This document shows positions 9,570 through 21,858 of a stretch of 64,000 bases of DNA, piece by piece; within the stretch, counting starts at the first letter, position 1, and the number at the start of each line of letters is the position of its first letter. Under the pieces are notes generated by a model. The model searched no databases and was not told where the DNA came from. It saw nothing but the letters and a program-made list of their open reading frames with translations. This DNA comes from Rhodothermales bacterium. Its GTDB lineage: Bacteria; Bacteroidota; Rhodothermia; Rhodothermales; Bin80. Where the stretch lies: positions 1 through 64,000 of the forward strand of contig JAJECE010000050.1 of NCBI GenBank assembly GCA_022822185.1, in the 5' to 3' direction. Both the position numbers and the translations under genes were made by a program.

Positions 9570-9935
9570 GGGGATGATCAGGCTTCGACGGATGGCATCG
9601 CACAACAAGTCGCGTGTCGAGTCAATCTGACCTGGGCTCGTAAATCACGTCAGAAAACCTGTAACTGCGAACGATTATTCGTACGCGATGGCGGCATAGA
9701 CCCGCTGTCTGTCTTCTGTGCATACCCGCTCACAGGTGGTACAGGAGGCATCGCCAAATGTGAGCACCCTGGTCAGGATTCCGGCTGGATCCTGACGGGG
9801 TATTGATCAGCCTTTGCGGACACCCGGCTTTGGCCGCACGCCATGGGTGAATGCAAGATATTAAAGTGTGGCCTACACACGTAGACGCTTGTCTGTCCGA
9901 CCGTTCGGACCCGGGTTCGATTCCCGGCATCTCCA
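9570..9935 (+). ncRNA. ssrA: Transfer-messenger RNA (tmRNA)
   Basis: Rescues stalled ribosomes and tags the nascent chain for proteolysis. The 5' end GGGGATGATCAGGCTTCGACGG is the tmRNA hallmark, and GGGGATG (9570-9576) pairs with CATCTCC (9928-9934) to form the acceptor stem. The T-arm GGACCCGGGTTCGATTCCCGG is at about 9906-9927. The tag reading frame is at 9667-9699: Ala-Asn-Asp-Tyr-Ser-Tyr-Ala-Met-Ala-Ala then TAG, a typical proteolysis tag ending in Ala-Ala. Discriminator A is at 9935; the next bases are CAA, so the 3' CCA is not encoded and must be added by tRNA nucleotidyltransferase. One-piece form, not permuted. Confidence 0.97.
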
Positions 9936-9936
9936 C

Positions 9937-11506: not shown

Positions 11507-11990
11507 TCACCTCCCCAATTGCCCGCCCAACATTATCCGCTTGATGCCATGCCCGTTAAGGATTGTCAGACAAAACCCCCCGTTGGTCCAAGAACACGGC
11601 AGTACGTGACGTTCCGCAATTGGCCCTACTGTTAGCCGGTAACACAGTCCCCTTAATAAATTCCCCTTTAAGATAGAAACAGGGGCGGATAGTGCTCCTC
11701 CACACGGTGTGCGTGTACTCCGCAGTTGCACTCCATCTACCCCGGTATTCTGGCAACTCCGTATCCGTGTGGAGACACCCCGTCCCCGAAGGTAAGTCAC
11801 GAGTCTGTATCTCATCTCCCCGCGTTTCCGGGACATTGATTTAAGCACGCCTCGAACGGACACCCAAAAACTGACAGTAAGATGCGTGCGTGCATCACCG
11901 CTTAAACACCCACGCTATACAGAACACAGCTGAAAGGATGCCGGTAAACTTGTTGCATCTCCGGTAAAGCCAGATTCTGTCTTTTGCCCC
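11507..11990 (-). pseudogene. Decayed partial copy of the sugar isomerase gene and its 5' flank
   Basis: The minus strand encodes KRGEMRYRLVTYLRGR, then CQNTGVDGVQLR, which line up with KRGDMRFGLVTYLWGR and CQNTGVEGVELR of the intact isomerase at 9971-10828. After about 50 codons the frame degrades through indels. The similarity also covers the non-coding flank (11880-11990 against 10830-10940). The arrangement is a direct tandem duplication with the distal copy truncated and eroded. No metal-binding half is left, so it cannot encode an active enzyme. Confidence 0.8.
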
Positions 11991-12250: not shown

Positions 12251-13648
12251 ATGCTAGGAGACAAGCAAAATTCTCGTCGTGACTTTATCAAGAAATCCGC
12301 CATCGGCACCGCCGCAGTGATGGCCGGTGTACAGGGTACACGAAATGTGCGTGCAACCGCACCCGCTACCGGTTCGGTATTGGGTGCCAATGACACCGTG
12401 GTATGCGGGTTCATCGGTGTAGGAGGGCAAGGCTACAATGCACATCTCCTGAATGTTACCAATCCCACAGACAATGGCCGACCACGGCACAATGTCCAGT
12501 TGAATGCGATTGGCGCAGCCGCCTGCGATTTATTCTCCAAGCGGCGTGATCAGGCGCACGCTGCGCTGGATGCCGCCCGTCAGGAAGCCGGTCGCGAAGC
12601 CGCCGTTGAAGTCCATGAAGATTACCGGAAGGTTCTGGATAATCCAGATATTGATGCCGTGTTTATTGGCACCGTTGATCACTGGCATACAAAGATCGCC
12701 GTGGATGCATTGGATGCAGGCAAGCATGTCTACTGCGAAAAACCAATGACCCGGTATTTTTCCGAAGGATTTGAGATCTATGATAAGGTCAAGGAGACGG
12801 GCCATAAATTTCAAATTGGCTCACAGTTCTGTACTCAGGGCAAATGGCACGCCGCCGCAGACCTGATTCGCGCCGGACGGATCGGCCCGTTGGTGCTGGC
12901 ACAGGATTCCTACTGCCGCAATACACCCATCGGTGAGTGGAATTATTACGCACTTGAGCCGGAACTGGAACCCGGAGTCACCCTGGACTGGGAAAAATGG
13001 CTCGGTCCCGTATCCTCCCGTGAGTTCAATGCACAGCACTACCACCGCTGGCGCAAGTATTATCCTTACTGTGCAGGGATCCTCGGAGATCTCCTTGCGC
13101 ACCGGATCCATCCTCTCCTGATTGCAACCGGCGCTCCAGAGTTCCCAAAACGCGTGTGCTCGGTTGGGAATAAAAAAATCGGAGATGCCAACCTAGGGGC
13201 TGAAGACCGCGATGTGACGGACAACTGCCAGTTGCTCGCTGAATTCCCGAGCGGCCTCTGTATGGTGATCACCGGGAGCAGTGTGAATGAGCAGGGACTC
13301 GGTCAGGTGATCCGCGGGAATGAAGGGACGCTGTACTTCAGTGGAGAAAGCCTGGAACTCCGCCCCGAGCGCCCATTCGCTGATCTGGTCGATGGAGAGC
13401 AAATGGACAACCTCCTGCCTGGTGCAGATGTGCCTGCTCATATCCATAATTTCTTTACGGCAATCCGTGAAGACGGACAGACTAACGGGAATATTGATGT
13501 GGCCATCCGGGCACAGACGATTATCTCCATGGCAGAATTGAGTGAGCGTATGGGCGAAATGATCTATTTCAACGAGGAAGAGCGGTCACTCCATACCGGT
13601 AGTGGTTCAAAAATTGAACCCATCACCTACGACACCGAAACGCACTGA
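12251..13648 (+). CDS. TAT-exported Gfo/Idh/MocA family oxidoreductase
   Basis: 465 residues. A twin-arginine signal (NSRRDFIKKSAIGTAAVMAG, residues about 7-26) precedes a Rossmann domain starting VVCGFIGVGGQG (about 50-61) and the conserved CEKPMT motif (about 163-168). The C-terminal domain is the usual Gfo/Idh alpha/beta sheet. Such enzymes carry a tightly bound NAD(P) and oxidise or reduce sugar hydroxyls. Export by TAT means the enzyme folds with its cofactor before crossing the membrane. Together with the second oxidoreductase, the DUF1080 protein and the isomerase, it suggests 3-keto-glycoside chemistry outside the cytoplasm. The exact substrate is unknown. Confidence 0.9.
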   Translation: MLGDKQNSRRDFIKKSAIGTAAVMAGVQGTRNVRATAPATGSVLGANDTVVCGFIGVGGQGYNAHLLNVTNPTDNGRPRHNVQLNAIGAAACDLFSKRRDQAHAALDAARQEAGREAAVEVHEDYRKVLDNPDIDAVFIGTVDHWHTKIAVDALDAGKHVYCEKPMTRYFSEGFEIYDKVKETGHKFQIGSQFCTQGKWHAAADLIRAGRIGPLVLAQDSYCRNTPIGEWNYYALEPELEPGVTLDWEKWLGPVSSREFNAQHYHRWRKYYPYCAGILGDLLAHRIHPLLIATGAPEFPKRVCSVGNKKIGDANLGAEDRDVTDNCQLLAEFPSGLCMVITGSSVNEQGLGQVIRGNEGTLYFSGESLELRPERPFADLVDGEQMDNLLPGADVPAHIHNFFTAIREDGQTNGNIDVAIRAQTIISMAELSERMGEMIYFNEEERSLHTGSGSKIEPITYDTETH

Positions 13649-13665: not shown

Positions 13666-13701
13666 GATCTGGAAGAGACGGAAATCCGTCTCTTCCAGAT
13701 C
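13666..13701. terminator. Perfect 16-bp inverted repeat between oxidoreductase and apbE
   Basis: GATCTGGAAGAGACGG and its exact complement flank a 4-base AAAT loop, 17 bases after the oxidoreductase stop and 25 before apbE. The stem is long enough to end or attenuate transcription, but no T-run follows. It may be a processing or stability element that sets different expression of the two parts of the cluster. Confidence 0.55.
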
Positions 13702-13725: not shown

Positions 13726-14691
13726 ATGCAAACCGTTCGACTGGCGCTGAACGCCATGGCGACTCGGTTTGAATTGGTGATGCATGGGGAAGATGCTGTG
13801 CTGTTAAGAGCAGCAGGCGAGGAGGCACTGTCTGAGATCAGGCGTCTGGATGAGCGTTTGAGTTTCTATAACCCAAACAGTGAGGTCAGCCATATTAACG
13901 ATAACGCTTCAAAGAAGCCCGTACCGGTCACACCAGACCTCTATTCCCTTCTGAAAATGGCATCTGAACTTTCTGACAAGACAGATGGTGCGTTTGATGT
14001 CACCGTAGGGCCACTCATGCGCTGCTGGGGATTTGTGCACGGTTCGGGGACTTGGCCGGAAGAATCCGTAAGAAAAGAAGCCCTGCAAAAAACCGGAATG
14101 AATCAGGTGCAGCTGGATGAATTCGAATGTAGTGTCCGCTTTAGACAGGATGGGATGGCCATTGACCTTGGCGCAATTGGAAAAGGATATGCTATTGAGG
14201 AAGCCGCCAGTCTGCTTCGGGAATATGGGGGCATGTCCGCCCTCCTTCACGGAGGCACAAGTACGATGATCGCCATCGGATCCCCTTCATACGACGAAGA
14301 TGGATGGACCATCGGAGTTGCCGATCCTCTAGACGAAAGCCATGTGCTGACCTCTACAGCCATTTGCGACGAAGCCCTTTCTGTGTCGGCACCGCATGGT
14401 AAAGCCTTTCAGAAAGGCGATCACATTTGGGGGCATGTAATTGATCCCCGTGTTGGCTATCCCGTACAAGGGGCGGCAGTCGCCGCAGTAATCCATTCAT
14501 CTGCAACTGTCTGTGATGCCGTCTCAACAGCACTTCTGGCCATGAACCGCACCGAAATGGATCATGTGGCACAGAAATTCGACGATATGCGTATACTTTG
14601 TGCATACCCCGACGGAAATGAACTGGAACTTGTTTCCAACGGATTCAACTCAACAGACTCAACGATTCCCGATGACAAAAAAAACGGTTAG
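13726..14691 (+). CDS. apbE: FAD:protein FMN transferase (ApbE)
   Basis: Transfers FMN from FAD to a Thr/Ser of partner proteins in extracytoplasmic redox systems. 321 residues with DLGAIGKGYAIEEA (about 146-159) and HVIDPRVGYPVQG (about 243-255), both ApbE signatures for FAD and Mg binding. Unlike many ApbE proteins it has no lipobox or evident signal peptide at the assigned ATG, so its compartment is uncertain. Its 3' end overlaps the next oxidoreductase by 20 bases, indicating an operon. No obvious flavinylation motif with a Thr/Ser acceptor was found in its neighbours. Confidence 0.92.
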   Translation: MQTVRLALNAMATRFELVMHGEDAVLLRAAGEEALSEIRRLDERLSFYNPNSEVSHINDNASKKPVPVTPDLYSLLKMASELSDKTDGAFDVTVGPLMRCWGFVHGSGTWPEESVRKEALQKTGMNQVQLDEFECSVRFRQDGMAIDLGAIGKGYAIEEAASLLREYGGMSALLHGGTSTMIAIGSPSYDEDGWTIGVADPLDESHVLTSTAICDEALSVSAPHGKAFQKGDHIWGHVIDPRVGYPVQGAAVAAVIHSSATVCDAVSTALLAMNRTEMDHVAQKFDDMRILCAYPDGNELELVSNGFNSTDSTIPDDKKNG

Positions 14692-15928
14692 CAGAAGAGC
14701 TTTTCTTATGGGCAGTGCTGCCCTCAGCGGAGCAGGTCTGGTGCGTGCAGCCAATATCAAAACCCGGCCATGGCCCGGGAACCGTGATGATGTTCATTGT
14801 GGAATTATCGGCTATGGTCCACAGGGGCGCGAAATCACCGCGACACTTGCCCGGGTACCGGGTGCGACCGTTTCGGCCATCTGTGACACCTATGCCCCCA
14901 TGCTCCGCCGTGCACAGCGGGATGTCCCGGAGGCAACTCGACATGAAGACTATCGTGAGATTCTAGACAATCCAGACATCCAGGCCGTGATCGTAGCAAC
15001 CCCTACCCACCTCCACCGCGATATTGTGCTCGATGCACTGGAGGCAGGCAAGAATGTGTACTGCGAAGCGCCGATGGCATCCTCCATTGACGATGCGAAA
15101 GCAATTGCACGCGCAGCACGGGATGTGCCTGAACAGATCTTCCAGGTTGGCCAGATTTATCGGTCCAATCCGCAACACCGCTCGGTATTTCAATTTATGC
15201 GCAGTGGTGCAATTGGGAAACCTGCCATGGCGCGGGGACAGTGGCACGCAAAAGAGAGCTGGCGACGCGCTTCCCCGAATGCCGAACGCGTTCGAGAACT
15301 CAACTGGCGCCTGGATCCCGAACTCACAACCGGGCTGATTGGCGAAGCCGCCCTGCTGCAAATGGATGTCGCCTACTGGGTGCTCGGTGAACTTCCGGCC
15401 AGAGTTCAGGGATTCGGACAGATCATGGGCTGGAATGACGGACGCGAAATTGCCGATACGATTCAGACCATCTTTGAATTTCCGAGCGGCCTGCATCTGA
15501 TCTTTGACGCAACCCTCGTAAGTTCCTATGAAGAAGCGTATGAAGTGTACATGGGATCCGAAAGTACAATTGTCTTTCGGGACCGGGGCAAGGCATGGAT
15601 GTTCAAAGAGGTGGATTCCTTGATGCTTGGCTGGGAGGTCTATGCAAGAAAAGACCGGTTCTATAAGGAAACCGGGATTGCCCTTCTTGCCAATGCAACC
15701 CAGTTGGATGCCCAGAATCTAGATCCGACCGAAGATGACCCCAATGTGGAGACTCCAATGTGGTATGCAATGCAGGAATTCATGGACAATCACGCCTTCG
15801 GCCCCTATCCGCCTGCTGCAAACTGGGAGCGGGGATTAGAGGCGGCCGCAGTTGCGATTACGGCGAATCAGGCCATTGTTGAGGGGACTGCGAAGGAGAT
15901 TGATCCACTATTGTATACGCTGGATTAG
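14672..15928 (+). CDS. Second TAT-exported Gfo/Idh/MocA oxidoreductase
   Basis: About 418 residues from the ATG at 14672, chosen because MTKKTVSRRAFLMGSAALSG is a textbook twin-arginine signal. The Rossmann start is CGIIGYGPQG (about 48-57). CEAPMASS replaces the usual CEKP motif, so the conserved Lys is an Ala here. In the family that Lys sits in the sugar/nicotinamide pocket, and its loss may change catalysis. The gene overlaps apbE by 20 bases and is followed after nine bases by the Fe-S membrane protein, so the three are translated from one transcript. Confidence 0.88.
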   Translation: MTKKTVSRRAFLMGSAALSGAGLVRAANIKTRPWPGNRDDVHCGIIGYGPQGREITATLARVPGATVSAICDTYAPMLRRAQRDVPEATRHEDYREILDNPDIQAVIVATPTHLHRDIVLDALEAGKNVYCEAPMASSIDDAKAIARAARDVPEQIFQVGQIYRSNPQHRSVFQFMRSGAIGKPAMARGQWHAKESWRRASPNAERVRELNWRLDPELTTGLIGEAALLQMDVAYWVLGELPARVQGFGQIMGWNDGREIADTIQTIFEFPSGLHLIFDATLVSSYEEAYEVYMGSESTIVFRDRGKAWMFKEVDSLMLGWEVYARKDRFYKETGIALLANATQLDAQNLDPTEDDPNVETPMWYAMQEFMDNHAFGPYPPAANWERGLEAAAVAITANQAIVEGTAKEIDPLLYTLD

Positions 15929-15937
15929 TTCAGGGCC

Positions 15938-17977
15938 ATGCTGACCCTGACGGAAAAAGTTCTCTTTGCTCTGGCGGCACTTTTTGCCGTGTATGGAACT
16001 TGCCTGGGAATTTCCGCGGTATTCAGAATCATCCGGCAGGGGCAGTCCCCTGCCCTGCATCTTGACAGCAAGCGCATACTTCGTGCAATCGGGGCCTGGA
16101 TTACAATGGGAGGCATGTGGAAGGCCCGCCCGCTGGTCACCACCATACATGCCGTACTCGCCTGGGGATTCGTGCTCTATCTCCTGGTGAATATGGTGGA
16201 TCTGGCCCGGGGGTATTTCTCCGTACCGGTTCTATTCCCGGACTGGCTTTATCACGGCTACCGCCTTGCGGTGGACCTTGCGAGTGGTGCAGTACTCCTT
16301 GCCATGCTACTGCTCCTGCTGCGACGCTTCCTTCTGCCCGGACCTGATACCCTGTCGCAACGGGATAATATTCTGCGTATCCATGAGGTACGCCTCCTGT
16401 TCCTGCGGCAGACAATTTCCCGTGACTCCCTGATCGTCGGACTGTTCATCCTGCTGCATGTGGGATTTCGTTTACTTGGAGAATCGGTCGCCATCGGACT
16501 GCATGGCCCGGATCCATGGCAGCCGCTGGCTTCCACCATCACACCTGTCTGGGCCGGCCTCAGTCCTGACCATCTCACAATCTGGCATCATGTATGTTGG
16601 TGGGGCGCTCTGGGCCTGATTCTAGCCTTTGCCCCCTATTTTCCCTATACCAAGCATTTTCATTTCATGATGGCCGGGGTTAACTTCGCCACACAGATCC
16701 ATCGCTCCTCGCCGGGCGCACTGGATCCCATTGACTTTGAAGATGCGGGTGCAGATGTTTTTGGATCACTCACCCTGGAGCAGCTTCCGCAATCCAGTAT
16801 TGCAGATACCTTCGCCTGCATCATGTGCAATCGCTGTCAGGATGTTTGTCCTGCGTATGCAACTGGAAAAGAATTGTCTCCTGCTGCGCTGGAAATCAAT
16901 AAACGCTACTTCGTCAACGAACATCTGTGGGACCTTGCTTCCGGGGAAACCCCCGATGTGAAACTGACCGAATATGCCATCACAGAAGCGGCAGTCTGGG
17001 CCTGCACCGCATGTGGTGCCTGTACCGAGATCTGCCCGGTTGCAAATGCTCCGATGCAGGATATCCTGCAGATCCGACGCGGTCTGGTGCTTATGGAAGA
17101 TCAATACCCCGCAACACTGGAACCGGTGTATCAGGGAATGGAGCGCAATGGGAATCCCTGGAACATGAGTGCACAGGATCGTATGGGCTGGGCCGAGGGC
17201 TTAGAAGTCCCTACGGTGGAGGAGAATCCTGATGCCGAATTGCTCTGGTGGGTCGGCTGTGCTCCCTCCTACGATCAACGGGCCCAGCAAACCGCACGCG
17301 CACTCGTGCGCATCCTGCAAACTGTAAATATTTCTTTTTCAGTCCTGGGAAATCGTGAACGGTGCACCGGGGACTCCGCACGCAGAAGCGGGAACGAATA
17401 TCTGTTCTCCGAACTTGCCGGGAGAAATATTGCCACACTGGATCAGATCAAGCCGAAACGCATCCTGACCACCTGCCCACACTGCCTGCACACACTGGGA
17501 AAGGAGTATGCTGCGCTGGGAGGGCATTATGAGGTGATCCACCATACGGAATTACTGGCGGAACTGGCAGGTGAGGGACGCATCCCAATGGAGGCGCTGA
17601 AGGAAGATATCACGTTCCACGACCCGTGTTATCTGGGACGGCAGAATGACATCACCGAAGCCCCGAGATCTGTTCTGGAAAATGTTGGAGCAACCGTTAC
17701 CGAGATGCCACGCAACCGAAAAGACTCCTTCTGCTGCGGGGCCGGAGGTGCCCAGATGTGGATGGACGAGTCTGCACCCAGAGTCAATGACGTACGCTAT
17801 GCCGAGGCCGCCGCTACCGGAGCGGATACCATTGCCACCGGATGCCCGTTCTGCCTGACGATGCTGCGTGATGCAGCCACGAAAATTGACACGAACGGGC
17901 CACATATCAAGGATATTGCAGAAATCGTCGCCGAACGCCTTCCCTCCAGATCAGATCACCCCGGAAAAAATCTCTGA
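15938..17977 (+). CDS. Membrane-bound Fe-S/CCG-domain oxidoreductase (EMO/HdrD-like)
   Basis: 679 residues. The N-terminal third has about five hydrophobic helices of NarI/cytochrome-b type with several His. Two [4Fe-4S] motifs follow, CIMCNRCQDVC from residue 294 and CTACGACTEIC from 356. The C-terminal half carries two cysteine-rich CCG-type domains, including FHDPCYLG and SFCCGAGG (about 597-603). This layout is that of ETF:menaquinone oxidoreductase (EMO) and GlpC/HdrD relatives, which pass electrons to quinone. No etfAB genes are nearby. Location directly after apbE and a TAT oxidoreductase hints at a role in that pathway, but this is inference. Confidence 0.82.
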   Translation: MLTLTEKVLFALAALFAVYGTCLGISAVFRIIRQGQSPALHLDSKRILRAIGAWITMGGMWKARPLVTTIHAVLAWGFVLYLLVNMVDLARGYFSVPVLFPDWLYHGYRLAVDLASGAVLLAMLLLLLRRFLLPGPDTLSQRDNILRIHEVRLLFLRQTISRDSLIVGLFILLHVGFRLLGESVAIGLHGPDPWQPLASTITPVWAGLSPDHLTIWHHVCWWGALGLILAFAPYFPYTKHFHFMMAGVNFATQIHRSSPGALDPIDFEDAGADVFGSLTLEQLPQSSIADTFACIMCNRCQDVCPAYATGKELSPAALEINKRYFVNEHLWDLASGETPDVKLTEYAITEAAVWACTACGACTEICPVANAPMQDILQIRRGLVLMEDQYPATLEPVYQGMERNGNPWNMSAQDRMGWAEGLEVPTVEENPDAELLWWVGCAPSYDQRAQQTARALVRILQTVNISFSVLGNRERCTGDSARRSGNEYLFSELAGRNIATLDQIKPKRILTTCPHCLHTLGKEYAALGGHYEVIHHTELLAELAGEGRIPMEALKEDITFHDPCYLGRQNDITEAPRSVLENVGATVTEMPRNRKDSFCCGAGGAQMWMDESAPRVNDVRYAEAAATGADTIATGCPFCLTMLRDAATKIDTNGPHIKDIAEIVAERLPSRSDHPGKNL

Positions 17978-19980: not shown

Positions 19981-21858
19981 CTACAGCGCGTAGCCAGTCA
20001 CAAATGCCTCGGCAGCATAAAATTCCGGCAGCCCGAGGCGGTTCAGGGCCTCCGCCGTTCCCGTATTGCGGTCACGCGCCCTCTGCCAGAATTCACGATC
20101 ATCATGCGCCCCCGGGAACATTGCCCGGTCCTTCTGGCTCTCATGCTTGAAAATCGCCTCAATCTTGCGCGCCATCTCTGCTCTTGAGATCGGTGTGAAT
20201 ACATCCGCCTGGTGGATTTCCCATTCCTGCCATGCACCGCGGTACAGCCACACCATGGGGCCCTGCACTCCCCGCTCCCGATTATAGCGCTCCAGAGCCA
20301 TCTGAATCGCAACATAACAGACCCGATGGGTGCCATGAGGATCTGAAAGATCCCCCGCCACAAAAATATGGTCCGGCTCCTGCTCGTTCATCAGATCCAG
20401 GATAATCTGGGCATCCTCTTCCCCAACCGGTTTTTTCTTGATCCGACCGGTCTGGTAGAACGGCAGATCAATAAACCGTGCATTCGAGCGGGTAAGGCCC
20501 ATCACCTCAATCCCCGCAATGGCCTCCGCATAGCGGATCGCCGACTTAATATTCTGTACCGACGGCAGATCAATCTCACCGGCAGATTTATTTTCCAGAA
20601 ATCTCAGCAACTCTTCCCTGCACGCCCGAAAACCCTCTGCTGCTTCTCCCGTAATGCCAAGTTCTTCCAGACACATCTCCACAAATCCCAGATAACGGGA
20701 TACATCGGCATCAAAAACGGCCACCGATCCATTGGTCATGTAGGCGACAATGACCTCGTTCCGGTTACGGGCCAGTTTGTCCAGCATCCCCCCCATCGAA
20801 ATCACATCATCATCCGGGTGCGGACTGAAGAGAATCACACGTTTTCGCTCCGGGAGCTGATTCTGGTAGTGGATCCTGCGGCGCAGATCTTCAAATACAC
20901 GTACACAGATCTCATCAATCTCCGGGTAGGCATACACCAGGCTATGGAGACGGTTGTTATGAAAATCTGCCTCCTCCAACTGAAGGATCGCCTTCCCGAC
21001 CCGCTCGGATAACCAAATGATTGCACGCTTAGCCATGTCCAGAGTCCATTCCACATCGAAAACCAGCCAGGGAGTCTGCTCCCGGGTCAGCCGGCCGGCG
21101 GCCGCACGATCCAGATAGACGGCACTCTTCGGATGCTCCCGCAGATAGGAGGCCGTCACTTCTTCATTGATCGGATCTTCAACGGCCCGCCGGATAATGC
21201 CTGCCTTCCCCTCCCCGGTTGCCATGAGGAGGATCTCACGGGAGTCCAGAATCGTCCCCACCCCCACTGTTAACCCCTGTCGGGGTACATGATCATCCCC
21301 AAAGAAATGACTGGCGGCATCCTTTCGGGTAATGGAATCCAAGATCACCTTCCGCGTCCGGTCATTGCGTGAACTTCCAGGCTCGTTAAAGGCAATATGC
21401 CCGCTTCGTCCAATCCGCAGCAGCACAAGATCCAGCCCTCCTGCGTTCTGGATGGCCTCCTCATAGGAGCGGCACCAGTCATCCACCTCGTCCTCCGCCA
21501 GATTACCCGGCAATCCATGTGCCTGCTCCCTGGGGACATTGATGTGATTCAGAAGATTTTCCCGAAGAAAGCGATAATAGCTTTGTATTCGACCGGGATC
21601 AATCGGATAGTACTCCGCCAGATCAAACGTGATGACACTGGAAAAATCCAGACCATCCTCCTGATGCATCCGAATCAATTCCTTGTATACATCCAACGGC
21701 GTGGATCCAGTAGGAAGTCCAAGAACCGTGTTCCGTCCCTGAGCAGTACGCTCTTTGATGAGCACCCCGATATGGTGCGCAATCTCCAGCGCCAAAGACG
21801 CTGCATCCTCGAAAATGTGTACCGGCAAATGCTCACGATAAGAATCCATCAAGGTCAA
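19981..21858 (-). CDS. NagB-like domain fused to PIG-L deacetylase domain
   Basis: 625 residues. Residues about 10-260 form the NagB/RpiA fold of glucosamine-6-phosphate deaminase (LPTGSTPLDVYK; GHIAFNEPGSS). Residues about 340-610 form a PIG-L/LmbE zinc domain with HPDDDVISMGG and DPHGTH. This long NagB architecture is known in Bacteroidota. The normally conserved NLDEYYP block reads DLAEYYP, so the Asp equivalent to E. coli NagB Asp72, the catalytic base, is Ala81. GRSGH also lacks the usual Asp. The PIG-L zinc ligands look intact. The protein may be a deacetylase with a sugar-phosphate-binding or altered NagB domain. ATG at residue 4 is an alternative start. Confidence 0.85.
   Translation of the reverse strand: MTLMDSYREHLPVHIFEDAASLALEIAHHIGVLIKERTAQGRNTVLGLPTGSTPLDVYKELIRMHQEDGLDFSSVITFDLAEYYPIDPGRIQSYYRFLRENLLNHINVPREQAHGLPGNLAEDEVDDWCRSYEEAIQNAGGLDLVLLRIGRSGHIAFNEPGSSRNDRTRKVILDSITRKDAASHFFGDDHVPRQGLTVGVGTILDSREILLMATGEGKAGIIRRAVEDPINEEVTASYLREHPKSAVYLDRAAAGRLTREQTPWLVFDVEWTLDMAKRAIIWLSERVGKAILQLEEADFHNNRLHSLVYAYPEIDEICVRVFEDLRRRIHYQNQLPERKRVILFSPHPDDDVISMGGMLDKLARNRNEVIVAYMTNGSVAVFDADVSRYLGFVEMCLEELGITGEAAEGFRACREELLRFLENKSAGEIDLPSVQNIKSAIRYAEAIAGIEVMGLTRSNARFIDLPFYQTGRIKKKPVGEEDAQIILDLMNEQEPDHIFVAGDLSDPHGTHRVCYVAIQMALERYNRERGVQGPMVWLYRGAWQEWEIHQADVFTPISRAEMARKIEAIFKHESQKDRAMFPGAHDDREFWQRARDRNTGTAEALNRLGLPEFYAAEAFVTGYAL

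Follow-up and report, generated by a model that had tools for sequence, protein, structure and literature searches.

The mycobacterial ETF dehydrogenase EtfD (PDB 9ojn), EMO and their relatives FadF and DgcB combine a five-TM b-heme domain with two [4Fe-4S] clusters and two CCG domains. ApbE proteins, such as Vibrio ApbE and the cytosolic ApbE of Klebsiella, are FMN transferases, and a Ser-His-Asp triad has been described for the Vibrio and Listeria enzymes (PMC12052999). The known classes of flavinylation-based extracytosolic electron transfer, with which we compared the present genes, pair an FMN_bind, DUF2271 or DUF3570 carrier with a transmembrane class (eLife 2021). Among Gfo/Idh/MocA oxidoreductases, BT2158 provides a periplasmic precedent (PMC11300592).

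Here we describe a gene block from a Rhodothermales bacterium in which, unlike in the EtfD system, the EtfD-type gene is located behind a Gfo-ApbE-Gfo cassette and not beside etfBA. The reading that we favour, with fair confidence, is that the block joins an EtfD-type ETF:menaquinone oxidoreductase to an OxA-ApbE1-OxB cassette that would oxidise sugars or glycosides in the periplasm and be matured by a flavin transferase acting in the cytosol. Both EtfD and ApbE belong to known kinds of protein, whereas the OxA-ApbE-OxB gene set appears to be undescribed; the literature searched yielded no description of an ApbE-Gfo/Idh/MocA association.

Architecture and conservation of the gene block

The window, that is, the whole stretch of 64,000 nucleotides analysed, is contig G000:C50 of a draft genome that totals 3.7 Mb and consists of 132 contigs. 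The initial annotation had recognised an apbE gene, an oxidoreductase gene overlapping it by 20 bases and, nine bases further on, a NarI/Fe-S/CCG membrane protein of EMO type, and Pfam and NCBIfam domain matches confirm all three identities. ApbE1 (apbE, 13726-14691, + strand) matches PF02424 (E = 1.2e-62), lacks a signal peptide and carries Ser221-His237-Asp264. OxB (14672-15928, +) matches GFO_IDH_MocA (E = 1.2e-21) and has a Tat motif, SRRAFL, with an EAP tripeptide (residues 132-134; 15065-15073, +) where EKP is expected. The NarI-like/Fe-S/CCG gene (15938-17977, +) encodes an EtfD/EMO-type membrane Fe-S oxidoreductase of 679 residues with two CCG domains (E = 1.4e-33) and Fer4. The 20-base overlap holds with OxB starting at ATG 14672, most likely the correct start (the longer start of the open reading frame list, 14564, falls within apbE), and the nine-base gap follows from the OxB end at 15928. 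The domain search also revealed a fourth gene of the block directly upstream of apbE, OxA (12251-13648, +), a Gfo/Idh/MocA protein (GFO_IDH_MocA) with a TAT_signal_seq match, the Tat motif SRRDFI and an intact EKP.

A perfect 16-bp inverted repeat with a 4-base loop (13666-13701, no strand) separates OxA from apbE. Most relatives have stem-loops at the corresponding position, with differing sequences and in several cases T runs, and the hairpin probably serves to terminate or attenuate OxA transcription. Scanning the operon for promoter and terminator consensus sequences returned nothing useful.

Conservation was assessed in a family of 16 genomes from six genera, comprising the source genome and other Rhodothermales MAGs (named relatives are Rhodothermales/Rhodothermaceae MAGs and Roseithermus). 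The order ApbE-OxB-membrane protein, whose conservation the initial annotation had proposed to check, is kept in all 15 other genomes (16/16 overall), with ApbE identity down to 53%, and OxA lies upstream of ApbE in most. Since the flanking genes vary among these genomes, the order is not due to chance. The nine-base gap is exact to the base in most of the source genus, and throughout the family the EtfD gene has stayed in place behind OxB at a nearly constant distance, which could reflect a functional tie of some kind. The opposing reading, which we rate as possible though short of an even chance, is that EtfD behind the cassette is a frozen operon accretion, a co-location without functional meaning. 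It would explain why the arrangement is restricted to one family and why the closest membrane-protein orthologue outside it (56%, genome G037) sits near an acyl-CoA dehydrogenase gene on a contig without OxA, ApbE or OxB; it fits less well with an order kept across six genera while the flanks rearranged. More distant EMO homologues in the order presumably adjoin etf genes, going by gene names that we read from the sequences.

Elsewhere in the window, a 3-keto-disaccharide hydrolase gene (PF06439; 18650-19462, -) lies just downstream of the block (only some relatives have it next to the block), followed by a PIG-L deacetylase fused to glucosamine-6-phosphate isomerase (19984-21858, -). Upstream are a tmRNA gene (9570-9936, +; tag ANDYSYAMAA), a TIM-barrel gene (PF01261; 9974-10828) and a degraded partial copy of the latter (11510-11863, -).

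The membrane protein compared with EtfD

The membrane protein matches the PDB 9ojn chain with E = 9.2e-102. Judging from its length and residue numbering, the chain is the EtfD of M. smegmatis described in PMC13083937, the paper whose list of redox ligands was used for the ligand check. The EtfD ligands of the linear [3Fe-4S] cluster D1 (C503, C538, C581 and C584) correspond to C441, C476, C513 and C516 of the window protein; these and the ligands of the noncubane D2 and the cubane D3 and D4 are all kept in the window protein and the family. The heme b His pair (H71, H242) and the menaquinone-site Phe pair (F78, F231) are likewise kept in the family. Cluster, heme and menaquinone-contact residues are identical to those of EtfD, whereas the long C-terminal extension is missing. 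The D1 cysteines are gone in two distant homologues (G033 and G040), which in this respect resemble FadF and DgcB, where they are also lost (PMC13083937).

The protein comprises about five TM helices and two CCG domains, and it carries two heme-ligand His residues and two [4Fe-4S] clusters. Hydropathy and the positive-inside rule are consistent with five TM helices and a cytosolic Fe-S domain; scanning located four of the helices, and homology served to assign the fifth, near residue 218.

Each family genome has a single EMO-type gene. ETF, encoded elsewhere than the cassette, and acyl-CoA dehydrogenase are found in 16/16 family genomes, ETF-QO in none of the 16; in the source draft only etfB is seen, at a contig edge (C37). 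The earlier remark that etfAB is missing is correct within the window but not at genome level, and the membrane protein therefore has its normal partner. Together with the EtfD ligands and the single copy, this distribution indicates that the protein is most likely the ETF:menaquinone oxidoreductase of the cell. Cytosolic ETF would then deliver electrons that travel by way of the CCG and [4Fe-4S] clusters to the b heme and on to menaquinone.

The initial annotation had instead suggested that sugar oxidation could be wired to the quinone pool, with OxA and OxB oxidising sugars outside the cytosol and an ApbE-attached flavin passing the electrons through the EMO-type protein. The tight order conserved in 16/16 genomes, the 15 of 16 genomes lacking an FMN_bind carrier that would give ApbE another use, and a b-heme membrane domain that could in principle reach both faces are in its favour. 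Nonetheless, we regard this route as improbable. The genomes contain ETF but no ETF-QO, and the EMO protein is their sole candidate for an ETF dehydrogenase; its Fe-S/CCG domain is predicted to be cytosolic, as in EtfD, while the oxidoreductases carry Tat motifs; it has no flavinylation motif; and outside this family the ApbE-Gfo cassette, which is spread over seven phyla, has no EMO gene beside it. Electrons from exported OxA or OxB would miss the cytosolic entry of EtfD, so that direct flow from these proteins to EtfD is unlikely.

ApbE1 and the search for a flavin acceptor

ApbE1 begins right at the ApbE domain in 16/16 genomes, with no signal-like N-terminus, and in the window an in-frame stop precedes it by a few codons. 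Accordingly, ApbE1 should be cytosolic and not itself extracytoplasmic. A periplasmic location is common among ApbE proteins without being universal, and the Klebsiella enzyme is a cytosolic precedent (PMC12052999). ApbE1 shows clear homology to solved FMN transferases, and its triad (S221, H237, D264) is invariant in the family. It differs from Vibrio and Klebsiella ApbE in having SVSA/HGGTS signatures, with SVSAxxGK where SGDY is expected and divergent residues around the triad, and in its partners, which are Gfo/Idh/MocA genes; neither an FMN_bind nor a fumarate reductase partner was found.

Of the three carrier domains, the search covered FMN_bind, which is absent from 15/16 family genomes, the source genome among them. 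Only G002 has it, as a weak match beside its own third ApbE. The possibility raised earlier that apbE serves an Nqr- or Rnf-type system was therefore discarded for lack of an FMN_bind subunit.

The initial annotation had also drawn attention to DLASGAV in the membrane protein (residues 113-119; 16274-16294, +), which lies inside TM helix 3. The heptapeptide is present, but the family alignment rules it out as a flavinylation site, because Val occupies the acceptor position in all aligned rows covering it and S-G-A is genus-specific, becoming FSA, FSV, FSG or LSA outside the genus. The canonical motif D-x-x-[ST]-G-A-[ST] occurs in none of OxA, OxB, OxC, OxD and EMO, so any target of ApbE1 is a guess. 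Another stretch, MVITGSS in OxA, was discarded since it aligns with a strand that we read as the serine strand shared by Gfo proteins. A whole-genome DNA scan for the motif, in which serine AGY codons were not covered, gave 20 matches, a number not clearly higher than the 15 of the backward control. The in-frame matches, which we dismissed as coincidences, include what we take from their sequences to be EF-P-like, glutamate synthase-like and cytochrome-type proteins.

These results raise the alternative that the ApbE1 subfamily is no longer an FMN transferase and serves exported Gfo enzymes in some other FAD- or nucleotide-linked capacity, such as handling their bound cofactor. The missing canonical motif and FMN_bind partner and the replacement of SGDY by SVSAxxGK are as it would predict, but the conserved triad and the homology to solved FMN transferases are not, and we consider it unlikely. 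A further point concerns ApbE2, a second ApbE present in every family genome, with a signal sequence in the source-genome copy. In the genomes inspected, ApbE2 mostly has Tat-type Gfo genes on its flanks, namely OxC (which has a Gfo Pfam match) and/or OxD. That this canonical, signal-bearing ApbE of the same genomes also has Tat Gfo neighbours argues for ordinary flavinylation. In the source genome, ApbE2 and these Tat Gfo genes lie within L053 9523-16959 (G000:C129), where OxC precedes ApbE2 and OxD follows at a greater distance; some relatives have OxC-ApbE2-OxD side by side.

The OxA-ApbE1-OxB cassette across phyla and its proposed role

A contig search with the family ApbE alignment returned 80 relatives. 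In the resulting tree, the window ApbE falls in a 36-row ApbE1 clade (SH-aLRT 99) that spans seven phyla according to record titles: Rhodothermota, Bacteroidota, Verrucomicrobiota, Gemmatimonadota, Armatimonadota, Planctomycetota and Acidobacteriota. OxA/OxB-type genes stand beside 28/36 ApbE1 rows as against 7/50 outside the clade (Fisher p = 2.2e-9, with rows that are not independent and the window ApbE2 counted as adjacent). EMO adjoins ApbE1 only in the Rhodothermales family; elsewhere, the cassette occurs without it. An OxB orthologue (E <= 1.3e-66) was found in 21 of the 22 ApbE1 genomes tested, even where not adjacent, and in 0/3 control genomes. In 56 kb of source-genome DNA chosen regardless of these genes, no Gfo match to the cassette queries was detected, and so sheer Gfo abundance does not explain the adjacency in this genome; Verrucomicrobiota genomes have many Gfo genes.

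In Verrucomicrobiota, genes for 3-keto-disaccharide hydrolase, ThuA and YceI are among those next to OxB, the YceI-domain genes being directly 3' of OxB at L218, L222, L225, L227 and L228. YceI relatives bind isoprenoid or quinone lipids. Separately, in Armatimonadota (L125, L133, L135 and L137), an ApbE of another clade is directly followed by Gfo genes with EKT or EKM for EKP, which is a separate ApbE-Gfo pairing.

OxA and OxB share the Gfo/Idh/MocA fold with the periplasmic glycoside 3-dehydrogenases of the BT2158 family and with levoglucosan dehydrogenase, and both are predicted from their motifs to be Tat-exported. The nearest named family of OxA is glycoside 3-dehydrogenase BT_2158, and OxA keeps the EKP catalytic motif. 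The scores of the cassette proteins nevertheless fall far below the cut-offs of these families, OxB is without the EKP Lys, and the genes are linked to ApbE. The Lys is missing in every OxB orthologue whose motif was read (EAP, ESP or EVP). The window OxB has the NAD-binding Rossmann and C-terminal domains. The AlphaFold model of OxB (mean pLDDT 78) has a Gfo fold, is nearest to levoglucosan dehydrogenase (Z 37.5, rmsd 3.3, 341 aligned) and matched only ordinary Gfo enzymes in the fold search. Residues 320-346 have low model confidence, yet are well conserved and contain an invariant WEVYA. The surrounding stretch, residues 303-350 (window about 15578-15721), reads KAWMFKEVD..LGWEVYARKD.FY.ETGIAL.ANAT and is nearly invariant across phyla.

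As with the BT2158 family, genes for 3-keto-disaccharide hydrolase and ThuA accompany the cassette in some phyla, and this, with the distant similarity, suggests a 3-keto-glycoside role. In the two-part reading that we favour, OxA would be the likely dehydrogenase, holding a tightly bound nicotinamide cofactor and acting outside the cytosol to oxidise a sugar or glycoside, and OxB would be a Gfo-fold partner without the catalytic Lys. ApbE1 would act in the cytosol before Tat export, most likely attaching FMN to a protein of the pathway, with OxB as the first candidate acceptor. EtfD would have joined the cassette only in the Rhodothermales family, perhaps for co-expression in catabolism. A more specific version, in which FMN is placed at a non-canonical site of OxB before export and OxB then shuttles electrons to re-oxidise the NAD(H) bound to OxA, is a long shot.

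The published flavinylation survey required a signal peptide (PMC8238504), and ApbE-Gfo cassettes without one on any key gene therefore fell outside it. The EtfD identification gives these bacteria an ETF-menaquinone link, and implies that EtfD need not adjoin etfBA. To our knowledge, how the bound nicotinamide of exported Gfo/Idh/MocA dehydrogenases is re-oxidised outside the cytosol is not settled. A cassette of Gfo enzymes and a flavin transferase in seven phyla provides a concrete, testable lead on this re-oxidation, and an OxB flavoprotein shuttle, if true, would amount to a novel mode of operation for nicotinamide dehydrogenases that work outside the cytosol.
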